NCBI RefSeq assembly: GCF_001425445.1
Contig: NZ_LMQU01000015.1
Span: forward strand, 62,001-126,000
Source: Devosia sp. Leaf420
GTDB taxonomy: Bacteria; Pseudomonadota; Alphaproteobacteria; Rhizobiales; Devosiaceae
Reading direction: 5' to 3'
DNA length: 64,000 bases
Below the pieces are notes generated by a model that did no database searches, was not told the origin of the DNA, and saw nothing but the letters and a program-made list of their open reading frames with translations. This document shows, piece after piece, positions 3,787-39,160 of the stretch (positions are counted from its first letter, which is position 1; the number at the start of each line of letters is the position of its first letter). The translations under genes and the position numbers were made by a program.

Positions 3787-5781
3787 ATGACCATCCGCAT
3801 CACCGAACACATCTGCATCCCCCTCAGCGACGGCACGCGCCTCGGCGCGCGCCTCTGGCTCCCGGAAGATGATGCCAAGGTCCCGACTATCCTTGAATAC
3901 ATTCCCTATCGCAAGCGCGACGGCACCCGTGGCCGCGACGAGCCTATGCATGGCTTTTTCGCGCAAAACGGCTATGCCGCGATCCGCGTCGACATGCGCG
4001 GTTCGGGCGAAAGCGACGGCCACATGGCCGACGAATATCTCAAGCAAGAACAGGACGATGCGCTCGAAGTCATCGCCTGGATCGCCGCCCAGCCTTGGTG
4101 CGACGGCAATGTCGGCATGATGGGCAAGAGCTGGGGCGGTTTCAACGGCCTTCAGGTTGCCTCAAGGCGGCCGCCGGCTCTGAAAGCCATCATCACGGCC
4201 TATTCGACCGACAATCGCTATACCGACGATATCCACTATATGGGCGGCTTGCTGCTCAACGATAATCTCTGGTGGGGCACGATCATGTTGGCCTACCAAG
4301 CCCGCCCGCTCGACCCCGAAATCGTCGGCGAAGGCTGGCGCGACGCCTGGCTGAAGCGCGTCGAAGACCTGCCCTTCTTCCCCGCGCTCTGGCTCGAACA
4401 CCAGCGCTATGACGACTATTGGAAGCACGGCTCGGTCTGCGAGGATTTTTCCGATATCGAAGTCCCGGTCCTCGCCATCGGCGGCTGGGCCGACAGCTAC
4501 ACCAATGCCGTGCCGCGCCTCCTCGAAGGTCTCAAAACTCCGCGTAAGGCGATCATCGGGCCTTGGGGCCATATCTATCCGCAGGACGGCGTCCCCGGTC
4601 CGGCCATCGGTTTCCTCGAGGAAGCCGTGCGCTGGTGGGATCACTGGCTCAAGGGCCGCGACACGGGCGTCATGAACGAGCCCGATCTTCGCGCCTATAT
4701 CAATGACAGCGTCGCCCCCACCGGTACCCGCACCGACGCGCCCGGTCGCTGGGTCGGCGAAGCCAATTGGCCGTCGCCATCTATCGCGCCCAAGACCTTC
4801 ACCCTTGGCAGCGACCATGCCCTTCACACCGGCACGGCTCCTGCCGGCACGCTGACCATCTGCTCCCCCCAAAGCCACGGCAAAGCCGGCGGCGAATGGA
4901 TGGGCACCGGCTGCGTCGGCGAACACCCGACTGACCAGCGCCTCGACGATGGCGCCGCCCTTGTCTTCGACACGCCGGCCCTGACCGAAAGCTTCGACGT
5001 CCTCGGCGCTCCGCTGCTCAAGCTCCGCGTGGCCTCCGACAAGCCGGTCGCCCAGGTCTCGGTCCGTCTCTCCGACATCCGCCCCGACGGCACCGTCACC
5101 CGGATCAGCTATCAGGTCCTGAACCTCACCCATCGCGACAGCCACGAGAACCCCGAAGCGCTCGTCCCCGGCCAGTTCTACGACGTCACGGTAAAACTCA
5201 ACGACTGCGGCCACCGCTTCGCCGCCGGCCACGCGATCCGCGTCGCCATCGGCACATCCTATTGGCCCATGGTCTGGCCATCGCCAGAACTCGCGACCCT
5301 CACCATCGACACATCGAGCAGCACGCTCTCGCTGCCCGTCCGCTCGTCGAACGACGCGTCGGTCGTCCTCCCGCCGCCGGCCCACGGTCCCGCGACCACG
5401 ACCACCCAACTCGATCCCGGCACCGTCCGCCGCTGGTCGAGCCAGGACCATGTCGCAGGCACGACCACCTATGTCACCGAAGGCATCGGAGGTCTCTTCG
5501 GCGAGGGCATTTTGCGCTTCGATGATATCGGCACGGAGCTCAGCCACTCGCTGAAGCGCAATTTAACGATTTCGGACTACGAGCCGCTCAGTGCTAACTA
5601 TCTGCTAACGCAATCGTACCAGATGGGCCGCGACGGTTGGCGCATCGGCATCGACAGCACGACCGAAATGCGCGCGGACAAGGACACGTTCTATCTCACC
5701 GGAACCCTCTCGGTCAGCGAGAATGGCACGGTGGTCAAAACGCGGGAATGGAGCCAATCCTTCCCCCGCGATCTCATGTAA
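3787..5781 (+). CDS. CocE/NonD family serine hydrolase
   Basis: Alpha/beta-hydrolase of the CocE/NonD (X-Pro dipeptidyl-peptidase S15-like) family, 664 residues. These enzymes cleave esters or amides; CocE and glutaryl-7-ACA acylases are relatives. The nucleophile elbow is GKSWGG with Ser115, preceded by the oxyanion-region motif RDGTRGR…YAAIRVDMRGSGESDG. The C-terminal half matches the jelly-roll X-Pro/CocE C-terminal domain (RISYQVLNL…SYWPMVWPSPE). No signal peptide, so cytoplasmic. Start ATG at 3787 matches the family N-terminus (ITEHICIPLSDGTRLGARLW). It follows the ABC importer in the same direction, so it may process the imported compound. True substrate unknown. Confidence 0.9.
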   Translation: MTIRITEHICIPLSDGTRLGARLWLPEDDAKVPTILEYIPYRKRDGTRGRDEPMHGFFAQNGYAAIRVDMRGSGESDGHMADEYLKQEQDDALEVIAWIAAQPWCDGNVGMMGKSWGGFNGLQVASRRPPALKAIITAYSTDNRYTDDIHYMGGLLLNDNLWWGTIMLAYQARPLDPEIVGEGWRDAWLKRVEDLPFFPALWLEHQRYDDYWKHGSVCEDFSDIEVPVLAIGGWADSYTNAVPRLLEGLKTPRKAIIGPWGHIYPQDGVPGPAIGFLEEAVRWWDHWLKGRDTGVMNEPDLRAYINDSVAPTGTRTDAPGRWVGEANWPSPSIAPKTFTLGSDHALHTGTAPAGTLTICSPQSHGKAGGEWMGTGCVGEHPTDQRLDDGAALVFDTPALTESFDVLGAPLLKLRVASDKPVAQVSVRLSDIRPDGTVTRISYQVLNLTHRDSHENPEALVPGQFYDVTVKLNDCGHRFAAGHAIRVAIGTSYWPMVWPSPELATLTIDTSSSTLSLPVRSSNDASVVLPPPAHGPATTTTQLDPGTVRRWSSQDHVAGTTTYVTEGIGGLFGEGILRFDDIGTELSHSLKRNLTISDYEPLSANYLLTQSYQMGRDGWRIGIDSTTEMRADKDTFYLTGTLSVSENGTVVKTREWSQSFPRDLM

Positions 5782-5785
5782 AAAA

Positions 5786-5808
5786 GAGCCCGCCAACTTG
5801 GCGGGCTC
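5786..5808. terminator. Bidirectional rho-independent terminator
   Basis: GAGCCCGCC (5786-5794) pairs with GGCGGGCTC (5800-5808) around a 5-base centre. Six A residues at 5780-5785 give a good U-tract for the minus-strand transpeptidase gene. It lies between two convergent genes and probably serves both. Confidence 0.85.
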
Positions 5809-5815
5809 AATCATT

Positions 5816-6511
5816 TCAAGCCTTTAGCACGATGACCTTGGTATCAACCGGGGTCTTGGCATAGAGGTCCATCATATCTTGGGTCAGAAGGCCAACACAG
5901 CCGCTCGTCACGCCCTTGCCGATCGTTTCCGGCATGATGGTGCTATAGATCGTGAACAGCGTGTAGCGGCCGTCCTGATAGAGGTAAAGCGTTCTGGCGC
6001 CTAACGGATTTCCAAGGCCCGGCGGCATGCCACCCGCATATTTGGCGACCTCAGGCTGCCGCGCGATCATCTCCTTCGGCGGCGTCCAGGTCGGCCATTC
6101 CGCCTTGCGCCCGATATAGGCTTCGCCGCTCCAAAGGAAACCGGCGCGGCCGATATTGGCGCCATAGCGTGTCGCCATCCCGTCGCCTTCGATACGGTAG
6201 ACATAGTAATTCTTGGGGTCGACAATGATCGTCCCGACGGCTTCCTTACTGTCGTAACGCACTGTGCGGCGCATATATTTTGGGTTGAGCTTGTTGAGGT
6301 TGACCGCTGGAACCGGGAACCGCTCATTGGGCAGAGGGCCATAGATCCGCTCAGCTTCAGCCGTGCTCATGCCCGTGCCGGTCGAGGCGCATCCCGCCAT
6401 GCCGAGGACTGCAAGGCTCGCAGACCCCACGAGAAACATGCGCCGGCTCATCGAACTGGCCCCAAGGCCACCGGCCATGCTCTTCACCGCATCGGTCATA
6501 TCAGCGCTCAT
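5816..6511 (-). CDS. L,D-transpeptidase (YkuD) family protein with altered active site
   Basis: Envelope protein of 231 residues with a YkuD/L,D-transpeptidase domain in roughly residues 90-230. Such enzymes form 3-3 peptidoglycan cross-links or attach proteins to peptidoglycan. The N-terminus carries a twin-arginine-like SRRMFLVG at 22-29 and a possible lipobox MAGC ending at Cys41, implying export. The catalytic cysteine is kept (SGC205VGLL), but the family motif HGT is replaced by Tyr189-Ser-Thr (IYST), and the Arg that usually follows the Cys region is Gly. So either a divergent active subfamily or a reduced-activity enzyme. It is monocistronic and convergent with the hydrolase gene. Confidence 0.85.
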   Translation of the reverse strand: MSADMTDAVKSMAGGLGASSMSRRMFLVGSASLAVLGMAGCASTGTGMSTAEAERIYGPLPNERFPVPAVNLNKLNPKYMRRTVRYDSKEAVGTIIVDPKNYYVYRIEGDGMATRYGANIGRAGFLWSGEAYIGRKAEWPTWTPPKEMIARQPEVAKYAGGMPPGLGNPLGARTLYLYQDGRYTLFTIYSTIMPETIGKGVTSGCVGLLTQDMMDLYAKTPVDTKVIVLKA

Positions 6512-6579
6512 GCTTGAATTCTCCCTGCCGCCCGACCCGAGGTCTCTGCCTCTCCCAGGCTGGCAGCGGCGAGATTGGT

Positions 6580-6611
6580 CCCAAAGCCAAGGCTTGGCAA
6601 GGGACTTTGGG
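6580..6611 (-). other. Hairpin at the 3' end of the acid-sugar operon
   Basis: An inverted repeat CCCAAAG (6580-6586) / CTTTGGG (6605-6611) encloses a smaller GCCAA/TTGGC stem. It lies about 11 bases beyond the FadR-type regulator stop on the minus strand and could end or stabilise that transcript. No T-run follows, so a true intrinsic terminator is doubtful. Confidence 0.4.
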
Positions 6612-6622
6612 CAACAGTCGGC

Positions 6623-7321
6623 CTATTGCTTGGGCGCAAAAAGCCGATCGCGCGAGCCCATCAGATGGTTGCGCATCAGGGTTCGTGCCGTATCGCCGTC
6701 GCTGGTCGAGATCGCCTCGAAGATGGCTGTGTGTTCGACGAGGACATGGCTCAACCCGTCGCTGGTCCGCCGCAGCGACAGACCATGCAACCGCATGCCG
6801 ACCGCGATGTGCTCTTCGAGCGCCTGCATCGCCGTCACAAAATAGGGGTTCACCGAGGCTTGGGCGATGCTGAGATGAAACATGAAATCCGCATCGGCCC
6901 GGTGCGCCTGGCGATTGGTCGCGTCTCGCAAAAGGTTCAGCGCCGTCTTGATCTTGCCAAGCGCCTCGGGGCTGCGTCGCTGGGCCGCCATCGCTGCGGC
7001 TTCTGGCTCGATAGTCAGCCGGAAATCATAGCAATGCTGCAGGTCCGACAGGTTCTCCATCTGGCCAAAGCCAAGTGGCTCGCGGATGCCTTGCTCGCGC
7101 ACAAAGCTGCCGGCACCACGGCGGGAATAGATCATGCCCTGGTCGCGGAGGCGCTGGAGCGCGTCGCGGACAACGGGACGAGAAACCTGAAATTCGGCGG
7201 CGAGGGCATGCTCGGTCGGCAGGCGTTCGTCGACTGCGTAAGCGCCGGATTTGATCGAGCGCTGGATGCGGTCGAAAACCGTATCCGCGAGGTTGCGCCG
7301 CCCGGTGAGACTATCCGACAT
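6623..7321 (-). CDS. FadR-subfamily GntR transcriptional regulator
   Basis: Ligand-responsive DNA-binding repressor, 232 residues. The N-terminal winged helix-turn-helix occupies about residues 12-75 (LADTVFDRIQRSI…RLPTEHALAAEFQVSRPVVRDALQRL). A C-terminal FCD helical domain (about 95-220) keeps the metal/ligand residues seen as DFRLTIE, ADADFMFHLSIA and EHTAIFEA. FCD regulators commonly control sugar-acid catabolism. The start is MSDSLTG at 7321; it overlaps the kinase gene upstream by 11 bases, making it the last gene of the ABC/kinase operon. A FadR-type TNGTNNNACNA site lies in the divergent promoter region (13500-13510), so it probably controls both arms. Confidence 0.9.
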   Translation of the reverse strand: MSDSLTGRRNLADTVFDRIQRSIKSGAYAVDERLPTEHALAAEFQVSRPVVRDALQRLRDQGMIYSRRGAGSFVREQGIREPLGFGQMENLSDLQHCYDFRLTIEPEAAAMAAQRRSPEALGKIKTALNLLRDATNRQAHRADADFMFHLSIAQASVNPYFVTAMQALEEHIAVGMRLHGLSLRRTSDGLSHVLVEHTAIFEAISTSDGDTARTLMRNHLMGSRDRLFAPKQ

Positions 7322-8354
7322 GGCTATGCACTGGGCTCCCGGCGCTGAGATATGGGGCGAGTAGGGTGAACAAGGTGTCCGGATCGCCAAAACCGCCCGA
7401 TTTGGTGATGACAGTCAAGTCTCCGGCCCGGGCATTGGGCAGTCCAGGCAAGGCTTCCCCCAGGAGTTCGAGCACGGCGATGCCGAGTTGCTCGAGAATG
7501 ACCTGTGCCGTGGCGCCGCCCGAGAGAACCAGCAGTGAGCCCGGCGGCGGAGAAAGTGCGGCCAGGGTTTTGCCAAGGGTGGTGGCCACGGCCTTTCCAT
7601 CGGCCGGCGACGTGCCTGGCGTTGCCTGGATGATGGTGAGTTTTGAGGCGCCGACCAGCGGCGCGCCGTGCCCGTTTGGCGCGTCGATATAGCTGATTTT
7701 TTGGTCAGCGGCGCGCAGGCGATCGAGCTGGGCGAGAGTGATCGGATCGGTCGAGCCGATGACACAATAGGCCGGGCCTTTGGGAAAGGTGATCCTCGGC
7801 TCGGCAGCATCTGGTGCCATGGCTTTCGCCATCGCCTCGGCGAGCCCACGGGCGCCAATGGGCAGGTCGAATGCTCTGTTAAGCGCCTGGTCGATGTCCA
7901 CCTGCTCGGCGATATCGGGAACCACGGAAGCGAGCGCGTGGCGGCCGAGACGGTCGGCAACGATGATAGGTTCGGGGACGCCAAAACCTCGGATCGCGCC
8001 ATCTTTCACCAAGCGCCCAAAGGCCGGGATCGCAGGGATGACAAGACTCCTCTGATGCGGGATGGCATCGAGCTCGGCTTCGATGTTCCCCTTTAGGCGG
8101 GAGTCGACTTTCTTGAATAGTGGCGTCCCAGTCGGGAGTGCGGCAAGCGCATCGCGTACAGCGGCGTTTGCCGCTTGCGGCGAGATTTCGCGGCTATCGG
8201 TCGAGACGCTGACGATGCGCGCGCCTGTGGCGATTGCTTGGGGTAGGGCCGCCACATTGAGCGCCACGGCCGTTGAAATGCCGCGCATGGCAAAGGGCGC
8301 GGCTGCGTCCAATGCGCCGGTCAGATCGTCGGCTATGATCGCCCGTTCAAGCAT
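7311..8354 (-). CDS. DUF1537 four-carbon acid sugar kinase family protein
   Basis: Predicted cytoplasmic kinase that phosphorylates a C4 sugar acid such as threonate or erythronate, 347 residues, shorter than the roughly 420 common in the family. The N-terminal substrate-binding domain begins with the hallmark ADDLTGALDAA and contains DSR and FKKVDSRLKGN. The C-terminal nucleotide-binding domain has LVLSGGATAQ and TKSGGFGDPDTL near its end. DUF1537 kinases act with PdxA2 dehydrogenases in threonate/erythronate catabolism, and a PdxA2 homologue is encoded on the other arm of this cluster. It overlaps the ATPase gene by 8 bases, which ties it to the importer. Confidence 0.88.
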   Translation of the reverse strand: MLERAIIADDLTGALDAAAPFAMRGISTAVALNVAALPQAIATGARIVSVSTDSREISPQAANAAVRDALAALPTGTPLFKKVDSRLKGNIEAELDAIPHQRSLVIPAIPAFGRLVKDGAIRGFGVPEPIIVADRLGRHALASVVPDIAEQVDIDQALNRAFDLPIGARGLAEAMAKAMAPDAAEPRITFPKGPAYCVIGSTDPITLAQLDRLRAADQKISYIDAPNGHGAPLVGASKLTIIQATPGTSPADGKAVATTLGKTLAALSPPPGSLLVLSGGATAQVILEQLGIAVLELLGEALPGLPNARAGDLTVITKSGGFGDPDTLFTLLAPYLSAGSPVHSHVG

Positions 8355-28281: not shown

Positions 28282-29034
28282 CTAGAGTTTTGCTGGATTA
28301 TCCCGGCCGACTCGGCCGTCGAGATAGTGCAGATAGGAGGGGTCAAACTGCCCAAGTTTGCGCAGCTCTTGCCAACGCAGAATAGAGACGATCTGCTGAT
28401 CGAAATCCATCACGCCCCGTCCACGCAGGTCCTGAAGGGTCCTATTGGCGTGCACCATCGAGATTCCCAATATATCGCCGAGGTCGGCCTGCGTCAGGGG
28501 CAGGGCAAAGGTGTTATTCTCGGTCAGCCCAGCCATGGCGGCACGAGTAAACAGCTCGCAGAAGAAGTGCGCCATGCGCGAAACCGCCTCGGCTTGGCCA
28601 AGCATGAGCATCCAAGCGCGAAACGCCGCTGAATCGATCAACGTGTCGCGCCAAAGTAGGGCATTCAGCGTTGGGGATCGGTCAAGTGCCTCATAGACCG
28701 CGTCATGCGGGATGCGCGCTATACGGCAATCGCTGATCGCGCTCAGACTGTGATCCATCATGTTTAGATGGAGACTGTGAAGGTCAGGAATGTCGCCCGC
28801 GGTGTGTAGCGAAAAGATTTGGCGATTGCCGTTCGGGAGCGTTTTAGATCGGCAGAGGTAGCCACTCACCACAAGACAGCAGCTCGAAGACACCTCGCCA
28901 TCAGCGACGATTTCGCTCCCCTTGGCGAGATCGCTCTCGCGTAATGGTAGGCGGCGCAGCTCCTCGCGGTCGGCATCGGTGAGTGTGCCGATCGTCTCAA
29001 GACGGTGGAGCAAGGGGTCAATAGCGCTGTTCAT
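28282..29034 (-). CDS. Crp/Fnr-family transcriptional regulator
   Basis: Cyclic-nucleotide-binding-fold regulator of 250 residues. The N-terminal beta-roll sensor domain occupies about residues 20-140 (DGEVSSSCCLVVSGYLCRSKTLPNGNRQIFSLHTAGDIPDLHSLHL). A long dimer helix follows, then a C-terminal winged helix (LTQADLGDILGISMVHANRTLQDLRGRGV, about 180-210). It lacks the Fnr cysteine cluster, so oxygen sensing through FeS is unlikely, and the beta-roll does not show the canonical cAMP-binding RE motif. Effector and targets unknown. Confidence 0.9.
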   Translation of the reverse strand: MNSAIDPLLHRLETIGTLTDADREELRRLPLRESDLAKGSEIVADGEVSSSCCLVVSGYLCRSKTLPNGNRQIFSLHTAGDIPDLHSLHLNMMDHSLSAISDCRIARIPHDAVYEALDRSPTLNALLWRDTLIDSAAFRAWMLMLGQAEAVSRMAHFFCELFTRAAMAGLTENNTFALPLTQADLGDILGISMVHANRTLQDLRGRGVMDFDQQIVSILRWQELRKLGQFDPSYLHYLDGRVGRDNPAKL

Positions 29035-34352: not shown

Positions 34353-34765
34353 TGCAAAACCTTGGCTAACGCATGTGCCTACGGAAGCGAGAAGTCTCGT
34401 CCGCAAGAGCGTCATGCGCATAAACGACAGGCTGCGACAGGCAGCATACGACAATGGCAATCGAAGGAGCCGGGTTCCGGTCATGTGCATGGGAGGGGCA
34501 GCGCGTCTCGGAAAGCCCATCGGCGCCGCACTAATAATCCTGATAACTGAGCGGACGGACCGGTTATCGCCTTAATTTGTTTGGACAAAATCTATCCGCC
34601 CGAAGTTCATTGCCTCGGGTGGTCCGCAATTCCTGCCCCAATCCGTCGTTTCTCGCGACACGTGTCGGGCAAAGGGATAAGAACCTCTGGCCCTTGATGT
34701 GCATTCTCTGGCAGAACCGTCTTACTCGATCTGGCCCGGTCCATGATCCAACATTGGAGACTCTC
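34353..34765. other. Intergenic region between treY and the LOV protein gene
   Basis: This 413-base gap separates divergent genes and must hold both promoters. I see no repeat, RNA gene or strong operator in it. GGAGA at 34756-34760 is the ribosome-binding site for the LOV gene. The open frames crossing it lack family similarity. Confidence 0.5.
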
Positions 34766-35338
34766 GTGGCAGATCAGCAGATCACTCCGGAATTGGCCAA
34801 TTATATCAGCAGCGCCCGGGTCGCCCTGGCTCTCGCCGATGTCAACGACGACCATCGTCTGGTCATGGTCAATACGGCTTTCTGTGATCTGACGGGCTAT
34901 GGCAGCGACGAAGTCGTCGGGCAGAATTGCCGCTTCCTTCAGGTGTCGCGGTCGCGGGGTAAATCCGAAAATGTCGACGCGTTGACCGACATCCACCGTT
35001 TCCTCTCTGAACCAGACGTCCAGACGGTGCGTACACCCATCGTCAACTTCACCAAGGACGACAAGCCCTTTGTCAATTTGCTTTTCATGTCAAAACTCAA
35101 GGGACCGAGCGGAACGACGCGCTACATATTTGCCTCGCAGTTCGATGTGAGCCGGTCGCATCTCTCCATGCTCGACAGCTATGATCTGCAATTGTCGCAA
35201 GCCATTTCGGGTCTCTCACCCGTGCTGCAGGAAAGCGGCATGATCATCGAAGGTTCGCTCGCAACCATCGCCAATTCCGCCGCCATGATCGCTCAGGCCA
35301 AGATGATCCTTTCCCAGTTGGAGGCGTCCAACTCGTGA
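34766..35338 (+). CDS. Short LOV-domain blue-light sensor protein
   Basis: Protein of 190 residues with a PAS/LOV domain at about residues 10-130 and a C-terminal helical segment. The flavin-binding LOV signature is GQNCRFLQ with the photoactive Cys55. Other FMN-contacting positions are kept: N36, R56, Q59, N94, N104 and Q125. This predicts blue-light adduct formation. The C-terminal helix (SQAISGLSPVLQESGMIIEG…) could dimerise or signal. The start is GTG at 34766 with GGAGA 5 bases upstream. Its stop overlaps the kinase start (GTGA), so sensor and kinase are coupled. Confidence 0.85.
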   Translation: MADQQITPELANYISSARVALALADVNDDHRLVMVNTAFCDLTGYGSDEVVGQNCRFLQVSRSRGKSENVDALTDIHRFLSEPDVQTVRTPIVNFTKDDKPFVNLLFMSKLKGPSGTTRYIFASQFDVSRSHLSMLDSYDLQLSQAISGLSPVLQESGMIIEGSLATIANSAAMIAQAKMILSQLEASNS

Positions 35339-38300
35339 CCCTCAACCAACCGGCGGTGACGACAGACATCGAGGAAGACGCCACTGTGCCGGTTATCGGC
35401 ATCGGTGCATCAGCGGGCGGGTTGGAAGCGCTCCGCGACATGTTTGCAGCAGCAGGCACATCACCGGGCATGTGCTTTGTCGTGGTGCAGCATCTCGACC
35501 CCAACCACGAAAGCATGATGGCTCAGTTGATCGATCGGCACACCGAGCTGATCGTCAAGCAATGCGAGGGCGGTGAAAAGGTCGAGGCAGATACGGTCTA
35601 CATCATTCCGCCAGGCCACGGCCTTGCCATTATGGATGGTCACCTGACCCTGACCGATTTCGAGCAGCCGCGTGGCCTTCGGCGGCCGATCGATGACTTC
35701 TTCATTTCGCTTGCGCTCGACCAGACGACCAACGCGGCCTGCGTCATCCTCTCAGGCACGGGTGCCGACGGCACCACGGGTCTGCGCGCCATCAAGGAGC
35801 ATGGCGGCATCAGTGTTGTCCAGGAGCCCGGCACCGCGAAATATGATGGCATGCCGCTTTCGGCCGTGGGAACGGGCCTGGTCGATTTCGTTGCCGCACC
35901 CGCCGAGATCGTTGGCCGGCTCCAGTCTTTCTTCAATCGCCATAAAGTCGACAAACACGATCAGGCCGAAGTTGTCGCCGATCATGTCGATGAACTCTGC
36001 CGCGTCTTGAGGACTGCTGTCGGACACGATTTTTCCGGTTACAAGCGTTCGACCCTCGTGCGTCGCGTCGAACGGCGCATGCATGTCCTCGGCATAGCCA
36101 AAGGCCGGGATTATCTTGATCGGACGCGCACCGACCGCGCCGAATGCGAGGCATTGTTCCGCGACCTTCTGATCAATGTTACGCGCTTTTTCCGCGATGA
36201 GGCCATTTTCCGGCAGGTTGCCGAAGAGGCTATCAAGCCCCTTGTCTCAGCCGATGCCGACGAGGATGGTATCAGGGTCTGGATCCCGGGATGCTCGTCG
36301 GGCGAAGAAGCCTATTCCTATGCCATGCTCTTTGCCGAGGCTGCGGAAACCCTCAACCGGCCGTTGACGGTGCAGATCATCGCCACCGATATCGACGAGC
36401 AAATGCTTCAGATCGCGCGGGATGGCTCCTATCCCAATTCGGCCATGGCGGACATTCCGGCTCGATTGCGCGAAAAATACACGGTCCCCCACAAAGACCA
36501 CTTTACGATCGCCTCGCACATTCGCGATCTCATTCGCTTTTCCAATCATAGCGTCGTCAAGGATCCGCCATTCTCGCGCATCGATCTCGTGTCGTGCCGA
36601 AACCTGCTGATCTATTTCAACGACAAGCTGCAGCAGTCGGTCCTGCCGCTGCTGCACTATGCATTGAAGCCCGGTGGTTTTCTGGTGCTTGGTCCGTCCG
36701 AGACCGTCGGCCGCTTCGACAATCTCTTCCCAGCCGTCAACGCCCAGGCACGCATCTTCAAGCGCTCGAACGCGTCACCGAGCTATCCCATGGAGCTGCC
36801 TGGCGGACGCGGTGAGGCCGCTCCGCGTCGTGCAGATCGTGACACAAGCGAAGTGACACGGGTGGTCAAGGAAGGTGGCCTCGCCAAATCGCGGCTGATG
36901 GAGCGCTATGTTCCAGCAAGCCTTGTTGTCGATGGCGAAGGGCTAATCGTTGCTGCCTATGGCCGGTTAGGCCGCTTCTTCGATTTTCCCGTCACCCCGA
37001 TGGATACGGCGAGCGCGACGTCTTTGGCACGTCCCGGTCTTCGCAACACCATTACTCCGCTGCTGCGCCAGGCCAAAGAAGCCAAGCGCCGTGTCGTCAG
37101 CCGCGACGTCAAGGTGCAGTCCGACTTCGGCACGGTGACAGCTGAGGTCGTTTGCGATCCATTGGCTGATGGCACCTTCCTCTTCGTGTTCCAGGAATCC
37201 GCGCCCTTTGCCATGTTTACCGATGGCGACACGCTGGCTGAAAGCGATGGCGATGAACATCTCGAAGCCATCGAGAGCGAACTGCGTCTGACCCGTCATC
37301 GGCTCCGCTCCGCCGTGGAAGAGCTCGAAACGGCCAATGAGGAGCTCAAGAGCTCCAACGAAGAAATGATGTCGATGAACGAGGAGCTTCAATCGACCAA
37401 TGAAGAGCTCTCGACCGTCAACGACGAGCTCAAGACCAAGGTCGATCAGATTTCCGTCGTCAACGCCGACCTCCGAAATTTCCTGGATTCAACCGATCTC
37501 GCCGTTATCGTTCTCGATCGTGACCTGCGGGTCCGTAGTTTCACCAATGCCGCAACGACAGTCTTCCCGCTGCAAGCCGGCGACCGTGGCCGTTCGCTCT
37601 CCGAAGTCGCAAGCCGTCTGGCCTCGCCCGACTACTTGGACGATGCTCAGCGTGTCGCGGAAACGGGCGAGTCCATCCAACGTCGCGTGCTAAGCCAGGA
37701 CGGTCGTCGGACCTTCGCGCTCAAGATCCGCCCCTATCGCCTCGCATCCAATGAGATCGATGGGGCCATGCTGGTTCTCACCGAACTGACAGATCTCCTC
37801 TCCATGGAGCGCGAGCTCGAGCAGGGCCGTGAGCGCCTTGATATGGCGGTCCGCACCGCCGGAATTGGCGTCTGGGAATATAGCCCGCTAACGGGGCGAG
37901 CTATTCTAGACAATTTCGAATTGGCGAATTTCGGCATCTATGAGCGCGATGGCGCGGTCGATGACCTGATCAACTACGTTTTCCCCGCCGACCGCAGGGT
38001 GGTGAAGGAAAAGCTCCACGACGCCTCGCTCGGCCGCGGTGATTTCGAAGCGACCTTCCGTCTTCAATCGGCGACCGCTGGTCTTCGCTGGGTCCGCGCC
38101 TTTGGCCGCCTGATCGATGATAATGGTGAACGTCGCCTGATTGGTGTCACCATCGACGTCACGCCGGAGCACCAATTGGCCGAAACGCGCGACGTGATGC
38201 TGCGCGAAATGAACCACCGCGTAAAAAACCTCTTCGCGCTCATCGCGGGGATGATCCGCATCGCGTCGCGCCGGTACGAGAAGGTTGGCGACATGGCCGA

Positions 38301-38772
38301 GGACATCGGCTCGCGTATCGCCGCGCTTGGCCGGGCCCACTCCCTGTCGACCAGCGCGCAGGGCGAGCAGTCGGCCAATATCAAGGACCTCATTCTGGCG
38401 ACGCTTGCCCCCTATGAGGGGCATGCGCAGATCCATTCGTCAGGGCCAGTGCTGGAGGTCAAGGCATCGGCCATCTCGTCCTTTGCCCTCATCATCCACG
38501 AATGGGCCACCAATTCCGTCAAATATGGCGTCCTCGGGCCCGAGCCGGGGAACCTTTTGGTGGAATGGTCTGTTCATGACCACCGGCTGTCCCTAGAATG
38601 GACAGAGCAGCGGGTGACCGCTGTACCGCACATTGAGAGTTCCGGTTTCGGAACGATCCTTATGGAGACCTCGGCGCGACAATTGGCGGGCGAACTGATC
38701 ACCACAGTGGATGACAATCGCCTGAAACACGAGTTAAGCGTGCCGACTTCGGTAATTGAGTTAGATGAATAA
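35335..38772 (+). CDS. CheB-CheR-PAS-HWE histidine kinase fusion
   Basis: Cytoplasmic signalling protein of 1145 residues. In order: a CheB methylesterase-like domain (IGIGASAGG with Ser26, SGTGADGTTG, about 20-200), a CheR methyltransferase (GYKRSTLVRRVERRM, IPGCSSGEEAYSYAM, SCRNLLIYF, about 225-485), a coiled coil rich in ELETANEELKSSNEEM-like repeats (about 640-710), two PAS-like domains (about 710-945) and an HWE/HisKA_2 kinase with MNHRVKNLFALI (His961) and HEWATNSVKYG. HWE kinases often pair with LOV sensors and single-domain receivers. Stop overlaps the receiver gene by 8 bases. Confidence 0.92.
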   Translation: MTLNQPAVTTDIEEDATVPVIGIGASAGGLEALRDMFAAAGTSPGMCFVVVQHLDPNHESMMAQLIDRHTELIVKQCEGGEKVEADTVYIIPPGHGLAIMDGHLTLTDFEQPRGLRRPIDDFFISLALDQTTNAACVILSGTGADGTTGLRAIKEHGGISVVQEPGTAKYDGMPLSAVGTGLVDFVAAPAEIVGRLQSFFNRHKVDKHDQAEVVADHVDELCRVLRTAVGHDFSGYKRSTLVRRVERRMHVLGIAKGRDYLDRTRTDRAECEALFRDLLINVTRFFRDEAIFRQVAEEAIKPLVSADADEDGIRVWIPGCSSGEEAYSYAMLFAEAAETLNRPLTVQIIATDIDEQMLQIARDGSYPNSAMADIPARLREKYTVPHKDHFTIASHIRDLIRFSNHSVVKDPPFSRIDLVSCRNLLIYFNDKLQQSVLPLLHYALKPGGFLVLGPSETVGRFDNLFPAVNAQARIFKRSNASPSYPMELPGGRGEAAPRRADRDTSEVTRVVKEGGLAKSRLMERYVPASLVVDGEGLIVAAYGRLGRFFDFPVTPMDTASATSLARPGLRNTITPLLRQAKEAKRRVVSRDVKVQSDFGTVTAEVVCDPLADGTFLFVFQESAPFAMFTDGDTLAESDGDEHLEAIESELRLTRHRLRSAVEELETANEELKSSNEEMMSMNEELQSTNEELSTVNDELKTKVDQISVVNADLRNFLDSTDLAVIVLDRDLRVRSFTNAATTVFPLQAGDRGRSLSEVASRLASPDYLDDAQRVAETGESIQRRVLSQDGRRTFALKIRPYRLASNEIDGAMLVLTELTDLLSMERELEQGRERLDMAVRTAGIGVWEYSPLTGRAILDNFELANFGIYERDGAVDDLINYVFPADRRVVKEKLHDASLGRGDFEATFRLQSATAGLRWVRAFGRLIDDNGERRLIGVTIDVTPEHQLAETRDVMLREMNHRVKNLFALIAGMIRIASRRYEKVGDMAEDIGSRIAALGRAHSLSTSAQGEQSANIKDLILATLAPYEGHAQIHSSGPVLEVKASAISSFALIIHEWATNSVKYGVLGPEPGNLLVEWSVHDHRLSLEWTEQRVTAVPHIESSGFGTILMETSARQLAGELITTVDDNRLKHELSVPTSVIELDE

Positions 38773-39160
38773 CAAGATCTTGCTGGTCGAAGATGAGCTT
38801 CTTACAGCGATGGACGTTGAAGACACTCTGCGTGAAGCGGGCTGGGATGTAGACGGTCCGTTCTCCAGCGTTCGCAATACCCTTCGTTATCTCGAGAACA
38901 ATTTGCCGCTATGCGCGGTTCTCGACGTGCGTCTTGAAGACGGGGAAGTCCTGCCTGCCGCAGATGTGCTGGCAGAGGCGGGCGTCCCGATTGTTTTTCA
39001 CTCCGGCCATGCCAGCCACGACCAACTCTCGTCGCGCTATCCTGATGCCTCGTTTTGCGACAAGCCGGCTTTGCCGCAAATGCTTGCCCAAGCTGTCGAG
39101 CAGGCCATCGATCGCGTGCGTGGCAGTCTAGACGAGTTGCAGGCCGTCCGCGCCACTTGA
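38765..39160 (+). CDS. Single-domain response regulator
   Basis: CheY-like receiver of 131 residues with no output domain. The acidic pocket is in LLVEDELL, the phospho-acceptor is Asp54 in CAVLDVRLEDG, the conserved Ser/Thr position reads as Ser in FHSGH, and the lysine is in FCDKPAL. It overlaps the HWE kinase gene by 8 bases and is its likely partner, acting as phosphate sink or intermediate. The VRLEDG variant after the Asp is typical of receivers that partner HWE kinases. Confidence 0.9.
   Translation: MNNKILLVEDELLTAMDVEDTLREAGWDVDGPFSSVRNTLRYLENNLPLCAVLDVRLEDGEVLPAADVLAEAGVPIVFHSGHASHDQLSSRYPDASFCDKPALPQMLAQAVEQAIDRVRGSLDELQAVRAT

Follow-up and report, generated by a model that had tools for sequence, protein, structure and literature searches.

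How does a LOV photosensor that carries no output domain pass on its signal? The question is raised by three overlapping plus-strand genes at positions 34766-39160 of a 64,000-nucleotide stretch of Devosia sp. Leaf420 (contig NZ_LMQU01000015.1, positions 62,001 to 126,000; hereafter, the window). They encode a short LOV protein, a kinase fusing the methylesterase CheB and the methyltransferase CheR to PAS domains and an HWE histidine kinase, and a receiver (Table 1). The kinase GTG overlaps the LOV stop by 4 nucleotides (GTGA) and the receiver start overlaps the kinase end by 8, so the coordinates, gene content, and overlapping layout given in a preliminary description of the window were accurate. 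Here, we show that the LOV–kinase–receiver set is a conserved unit across alphaproteobacteria, which confirms that observation and extends it far beyond what was first noted. The small LOV sensor and the CheB-CheR-HWE kinase probably work together, and we lean towards a three-gene blue-light two-component module with a split-off sensor, in which the LOV protein controls the kinase in trans.

Searching named genomes with an alignment of two LOV rows, we retained 80 loci. The ten best (L044-L053) all have a CheB-CheR fusion directly after the LOV gene, and their hosts are a Devosia metagenome-assembled genome, two Sphingomonas, six Rhodobacterales, and one Qipengyuania; the uncultured Devosia (L044) is the nearest, at 82%. 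None of the weaker matches with context shown (L054-L086) has CheB-CheR after LOV, and most are either kinases with a fused LOV domain or LOV proteins of other kinds. A LOV profile identified close homologues in 8 of 394 Rhodobacteraceae-like genomes (E <= 2.5e-44, next match 3.1e-34) and in 17 of 298 Sphingomonadaceae-like genomes (E <= 3.3e-44, next match 2.9e-34), where the family labels of the samples are those that we infer. The set that we call class I contains 36 distinct loci (37 rows, of which L213 is the contig of L049, as shown by matching sequence matches) from three alphaproteobacterial groups. These loci were picked by LOV similarity alone, and a CheB-CheR fusion lies downstream of the LOV gene, on the same strand, in all 36. 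An HWE match is present in all 34 uncut kinase genes (in L044 and L267, the contig ends within the gene). A receiver adjoins the kinase in 29 of the 34: it is co-oriented in 16 and lies on the opposite strand in 13, and the remaining 5 have none. Beyond these three genes, no cluster of neighbours spans more than 6 of the 36 loci, and the 6-locus cluster looks like an antisense frame; this clustering picked open reading frames greedily, a crude procedure that undercounts LOV and receiver genes too. Nonsynonymous divergence (dN) is far below synonymous divergence (dS, which is saturated) for the LOV, kinase, and receiver genes relative to a same-genus homologue (G034). With dN this low in all three genes, and with all 36 distinct loci sharing the arrangement, chance does not account for it. 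We also searched viral contigs for relatives: none of the 66 pattern matches was a relative by tblastn.

The LOV protein matches Pfam as PAS_9 and has no output domain in Pfam. It holds the adduct cysteine in an NCRFLQ motif and the Asn, Asn, and Gln that contact flavin mononucleotide (FMN). The tested positions have known photochemical roles, and all 36 class I LOV proteins, as well as all 12 of a second class described below, retain N54, C55, R56, L58, Q59, N94, N104, and Q125. Hence, the protein is predicted to be an FMN-binding, adduct-forming photoreceptor. The AlphaFold2 model (mean predicted local distance difference test score 86.8, falling to 71-76 in the last three ten-residue blocks) places two helices, 133-156 and 172-189, in a C-terminal extension. 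The preliminary description had recognised Cys55, the FMN contacts, the lack of an output domain, and the separate nature of the LOV subunit, all of which stand; it had missed the two-helix extension, and neither the breadth of conservation nor the link to RsLOV was visible from the window. The best matches in the PDB, by sequence and by fold, are entries of RsLOV, the short LOV protein of Rhodobacter sphaeroides, which take Foldseek ranks 1-13, and the C-terminal helices are homologous to those of RsLOV.

This likeness leads to a second group of loci, class II, in which RsLOV-like short LOV genes are divergent from a related CheB-CheR-HWE kinase gene that is followed by a receiver. With hhalign, the LOV profiles of the two classes match at a probability of 100 (E 4.9e-43) over 175 columns that include the C-terminal helices. 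We examined 13 RsLOV-like LOV proteins, a subset of the short LOV frames from the profile search of the Rhodobacteraceae-like sample, and 9 of them adjoin the divergent kinase. In the genus that holds RsLOV, the arrangement is intact in four of five genomes (one already among the 9). Class II thus amounts to 12 loci, four of them from one genus, with one receiver (L221) found by clustering only. In one of these loci (L280, genome 83% complete), the LOV protein is identical at 176 of 176 residues to PDB entries 4HJ4/4HNB, titled Rhodobacter sphaeroides LOV protein, and the kinase has CheB, CheR, PAS_10, PAS_4, and HWE domains in Pfam. RsLOV is a structurally solved photoreceptor, a dimer in the dark and a monomer when lit, used in several optogenetic tools, according to a part of PMC9614035. 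The consulted part of PMC9758184 states that, as of 2022, no binding partners had been identified for RsLOV, DsLOV, and the Pseudomonas putida short LOV proteins. In the loci described here, the CheB-CheR-PAS-HWE kinase with its receiver stands out as a specific candidate partner of RsLOV and related LOV proteins, which turns this question into one that can be tested with two purified proteins. We found no description of a LOV gene beside a CheB-CheR-HWE kinase in the literature covered, whose scope leaves out most subscription papers and the original publications on RsLOV (Hendrischk 2009, Metz 2012, Conrad 2013), which may mention the neighbour.

Is the LOV neighbour a general feature of such kinases? 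The kinase has matches at E 1e-60 in 38 of 385 genomes of a class-wide sample (the Devosia genome included), and an HWE domain was found in 12 of the 29 CheB-CheR loci examined from it, some of which end before the gene does. These 12, with two more from genomes G006 and G040, provide 14 CheB-CheR-HWE kinases outside classes I and II. They share the chassis of the window kinase, often with a receiver, but 13 of the 14 have no LOV relative in the fetched flanks (BLAST, E 0.001). In the exception (L254, G040:C4), a larger LOV frame lies at a distance of about 1.7 kb. This frame of 575 residues (694-2421) is divergent from the distant kinase (4082-7813), with other frames between them, and the kinase has Asn at the aligned CheB Asp position; it is possibly another light-linked version. 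Since CheB-CheR-HWE kinases also exist without LOV, having a LOV neighbour is a trait of certain kinase clades.

We inferred a tree of the kinases from 62 rows and 720 residues from CheB on (all trees were made by quick searches). Class I (36 rows) and class II (12 rows) are each set off by a branch with support 100, and a further branch of equal support separates both classes, together with one LOV-less kinase (L284), from the others. L284 is placed next to class I with a support of only 89, and the joining of two long LOV-less rows is unsafe. Support in the LOV tree is 94 for class I and 63 for class II, and three unlinked short LOV proteins lie near class II. Five loci outside the classes were dropped from this tree at the motif filter; the filter also missed the NCRILQ motif of L259, which keeps all the residues and is left out of both the LOV tree and the distance test. 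The path distances in the LOV and kinase trees correlate with r 0.887 in class I (35 rows) and r 0.887 in class II (12 rows), and 0 of 2000 shuffles reached such values. Within the genus of the window, a close LOV homologue occurs in 2 of 37 genomes (the window's own included), and no others carry a full-length kinase orthologue than these two, which also speaks for a functional pair. We also considered that the HWE part may be of another origin than CheB, a domain swap, but single-domain trees did not settle this.

Several observations weigh against a functional pair. The agreement between the trees is also expected from linked inheritance alone, so that it indicates a stable pair and not contact. 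The module is rare: in a class-wide sample of 385 evenly chosen genomes, the window's own genome is the only one with a class I LOV (next best match E 1.7e-33), hence its distribution is patchy. Four of the 13 RsLOV-like LOV proteins lack an adjoining CheB-CheR gene, three judged from the fetched flanks (L226, L228, L232) and one from 1.5 kb only (L201). The flanks of the first three have no receiver match either. One genome of the RsLOV genus (L283, G1131:C31) keeps an RsLOV orthologue and the receiver, but only an HWE remnant of the divergent CheB-CheR kinase. Finally, five class I loci (L218, L260, L261, L262, L265) carry a Crp/Fnr-type gene between LOV and kinase and have no receiver; the intervening protein of L260 is backed by Pfam.

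These points bear on the alternative that the genes are co-transcribed or co-inherited, that their proteins make no contact, and that the LOV protein has another target. Operon linkage is not interaction, the Crp/Fnr-type regulator could be the LOV target in the five loci that have it, and the LOV gene of L283 has outlived most of its kinase gene. Parts of published work also report that RsLOV affects many genes (PMC4335406, PMC4844311), among them genes of photosynthesis, stress, carbohydrate and carbon metabolism, and chemotaxis (see also PMC8508746). However, the same gene pair is kept in two arrangements, a same-strand operon and a divergent pair, it spans three alphaproteobacterial groups, and no other gene recurs to a similar extent, within the crude picking of reading frames noted above. 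We therefore regard the absence of contact as quite unlikely. Control in trans, as first proposed for the window, is the best reading because the LOV protein is separate, its tested photochemical residues are kept, it is tied to one kinase clade across orders, and the trees agree; the binding and the effect of light, like everything beyond the presence of intact sites, are what we infer from these sequences.

Where on the kinase could LOV act? Pfam identifies CheB (residues 21-195), CheR_N (219-267), CheR (281-472), PAS_10 (713-819), PAS_3 (873-938), and HWE_HK (958-1038; PF07536, 59.1 bits for a cut-off of 22.8). The segment between CheR and the coiled coil has no Pfam match and was modelled with moderate confidence by AlphaFold2 (mean score 72.7); the 50 PDB matches listed for it are all PAS-type by title, with modest TM-scores, suggesting that the kinase holds a third, cryptic PAS-like fold. 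The single PAS domain of the preliminary description thus becomes two Pfam domains and a putative third, while its CheB, CheR, coiled coil, and HWE parts were all recovered. The CheB and CheR positions tested have known catalytic or S-adenosylmethionine-binding roles, and the residue alignment places the expected residues at them in the window kinase. Every kinase of class I (36 of 36) and class II (12 of 12) retains CheB Ser26, His53, and Asp145. The tested CheR positions are retained as well, except for Glu324, which is Gln in 11 of 12 class II kinases, with one class I row cut at two positions. All 34 uncut kinases of class I and all 12 of class II retain the HWE residues His961, Glu1056, Asn1060, Trp1089, and Glu1091, which include the His, N-box Asn, and WxE of such kinases. 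The best NCBIfam matches of the HWE part are PRK13559 and a blue-light kinase model, both far below their cut-offs, and the latter model also scores far below its cut-off for the LOV protein and for the whole kinase. Across its genome, Devosia sp. Leaf420 has 3 CheB and 13 HWE_HK matches.

A comparison of the domains suggests an answer. Between classes I and II, identity is 50.9% in CheB and 69.6% in the coiled coil, relative to 43.9 and 44.2% (CheB) and 63.4 and 57.3% (coiled coil) between these classes and the LOV-less kinases. There is no such excess in CheR (45.0% versus 45.5 and 44.5%), in the HWE parts (26.8 and 28.5% versus 26.9-38.0%), or in PAS_10. Residues common to both LOV-linked classes and rare in the LOV-less kinases occupy 9 of 175 CheB columns, 5 of 61 in the coiled coil, 4 of 192 in CheR, and 2 of 111 in PAS_3, and none of the 194 HWE columns or of the remaining domains. 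The reverse pattern, in which one class and the LOV-less kinases share residues, was not seen in CheB. These are hints of a LOV docking surface on CheB and the coiled coil. They fit an alternative in which LOV controls the CheB-CheR half while the HWE kinase responds to other signals via its PAS domains, both being integrated in one protein. Yet, shared ancestry could also explain the likeness, because both classes and L284 lie on one side of a branch and ancestry alone can give such residues; furthermore, the tree of CheB alone groups the classes with a support of only 61, and the LOV-less set is small (14). We consider this alternative unlikely.

The methylation domains raise the question of chemotaxis. 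The preliminary description had hinted at chemotaxis-type methylation; the domains are there, and the window's genome has 26 matches to the MCP-signal (chemoreceptor) domain. However, the CheB domain differs from a chemotaxis response regulator: it begins at residue 21, and the kinase has no receiver match in Pfam. Among the 38 module-bearing genomes, 31 have an MCP match over the family cut-off, one (G591) has a single match below it, and six (G1089, G1009, G950, G1052, G923, G549; four of one genus, each with a listed completeness of 99% or more) lack any match at E 0.001, which weakens a role in chemotaxis. These genomes keep the tested CheB and CheR residues, with the class II Gln at position 324 noted above. 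Hence, at least in these six genomes, CheB and CheR, if active, need a substrate other than chemoreceptors. A CheB-CheR fusion with intact active sites in genomes with no detected chemoreceptor points to a use of methylation outside chemotaxis. A phototaxis adaptation device, in which LOV-controlled CheB and CheR methylate the chemoreceptors of the cell, would fit the many genomes with MCP matches and the effect of RsLOV on chemotaxis genes reported in parts of PMC4335406 and PMC8508746, but the six genomes without a match make it very improbable.

Under control of the kinase in trans, the LOV protein would bind FMN and form the Cys55 adduct in blue light, as established for LOV domains. Light would then alter its oligomeric state through the C-terminal helical extension, as it breaks the RsLOV dimer. 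This may change the docking of LOV on the CheB-CheR-PAS-HWE protein, as the genome linkage and the agreeing trees suggest, and with it the kinase or phosphatase output. Phosphate would pass from His961 to Asp54 of the receiver, which could be a sink, as is LovR, or a relay, probably into the general stress response. CheB and CheR probably methylate and demethylate a non-chemoreceptor substrate, or the kinase itself as an adaptation device. A broader version of this scenario, in which RsLOV-family short LOV proteins are detachable photosensor subunits of the whole CheB-CheR-PAS-HWE clade that dock on CheB and the coiled coil, and CheB and CheR modify a non-chemoreceptor substrate, possibly the kinase itself, to give a blue-light two-component system a built-in methylation adaptation, seems to us somewhat unlikely.

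The receiver match in Pfam is weak (23.8 bits for a cut-off of 30.2). In NCBIfam, the protein resembles PhyR-type receivers, below the cut-off of the model, and all receivers aligned, 29 from class I and 11 from class II, keep Asp10, Asp54, and Lys100. It lacks the FATG-type motif that we take as the mark of FATGUY single-domain receivers: the window has FHSGH, class I varies, and class II is FAxGY-like. We also searched for GGAAC-N15..19-GTT, which we assume to be the EcfG-type promoter motif. It was not found in the 300 nucleotides scanned upstream of the window LOV gene and occurs upstream of LOV in 5 of 36 class I loci, for 0.72 expected from shuffles, a post hoc comparison; these five are exactly the loci with the inserted Crp/Fnr-type gene. 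In the window, the minus strand encodes a Crp/Fnr-like protein at 28282-29034, some 5.7 kb away from the module. This protein clusters with frames of L218 and L262, apparently the inserted Crp/Fnr genes; in so large a family, this may be chance.

The coordinates of the module are given in Table 1. A start of the LOV gene upstream of the GTG at 34766 was considered since the preceding Leu-Glu recurs in two homologues, but these codons contain the GGAG site, so this GTG was retained. TTGGAGA precedes the matching GTG in the G034 and L044 homologues.

Table 1. Elements of the LOV–kinase–receiver module, in window positions.
Feature	Position	Strand	Basis or remarks
GGAG ribosome-binding site of LOV gene	34756..34759	+	Sequence; arrangement alike in G034 and L044 homologues
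Short LOV photoreceptor (putative), 190 aa, GTG start, TGA stop	34766..35338	+	N54, C55, R56, Q59, N94, N104, Q125 present
Cys55 codon, flavin-adduct residue of LOV proteins	34928..34930	+	Sequence; kept in 36/36 class I, 12/12 class II
LOV C-terminal two-helix extension, residues 133-189, RsLOV-like	35162..35332	+	AlphaFold2, hhalign, Foldseek
CheB-CheR-PAS-HWE histidine kinase, 1145 aa, GTG start, TAA stop	35335..38772	+	Sequence, Pfam
CheB methylesterase domain; triad Ser26, His53, Asp145	35395..35919	+	Pfam; no receiver found ahead of CheB
CheR_N and CheR methyltransferase domains	35989..36750	+	Pfam
Cryptic PAS-like fold (predicted), about residues 515-625, between CheR and coiled coil	36877..37209	+	AlphaFold2, PDB matches
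Coiled coil (ETANEELKSSNEEMMSMNEELQSTNEEL)	37267..37449	+	Sequence; class I mean identity 86%
PAS_10 domain	37471..37791	+	Pfam
PAS_3 domain	37951..38148	+	Pfam
HWE histidine kinase; phospho-acceptor His961, Asn1060, Trp1089-x-Glu1091	38206..38754	+	Pfam, residue alignment
Single-domain receiver, 131 aa, ATG start, TGA stop; Asp10, Asp54, Lys100	38765..39160	+	Pfam, alignment

Signalling by LOV and HWE domains in two-component systems is already known; what is new is a separate LOV subunit paired with a CheB-CheR-HWE kinase. The LOV-HWE/HisKA2 kinases (LovK, Brucella LOV-HK, EL346) also combine a LOV sensor with an HWE-type kinase and, in some, a single-domain receiver, and the window HWE part matches the kinase region of the blue-light kinase model in NCBIfam, at a score below its cut-off. 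They differ in that LOV and kinase are fused in one polypeptide, whereas in the window they are products of separate overlapping genes and the kinase adds CheB, CheR, and other PAS domains. Fused LOV-HWE kinases are treated in PMC10359499 and PMC12148442, and CheB is absent from the consulted parts of both. At a Sulfitobacter mediterraneus locus (L071, around 8195), a LOV-HWE kinase gene seems to be split by a stop in the LOV region into separate LOV and HWE frames. Part of PMC5964349 shows that LovK-LovR of Caulobacter serves as a sink for phosphate within the general stress response. In PmSB-LOV/PmlR2 of Pseudomonas mendocina, a short LOV protein acts in trans on the product of the adjacent gene, as we propose here; part of PMC9758184 presents PmlR2 as the first partner reported for a bacterial short LOV, but it is a MerR-type DNA-binding protein and no kinase is involved. 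The closest likeness is to RsLOV itself (PDB 4HJ3/4HJ4/4HNB), which shares the LOV core and the C-terminal two-helix extension, and the gene for an identical protein adjoins a CheB-CheR-PAS-HWE kinase and a receiver. The two differ in sequence (24-30% identity in the structure matches) and in gene order, divergent in one and overlapping in the other, and their kinases belong to related but separate clades.

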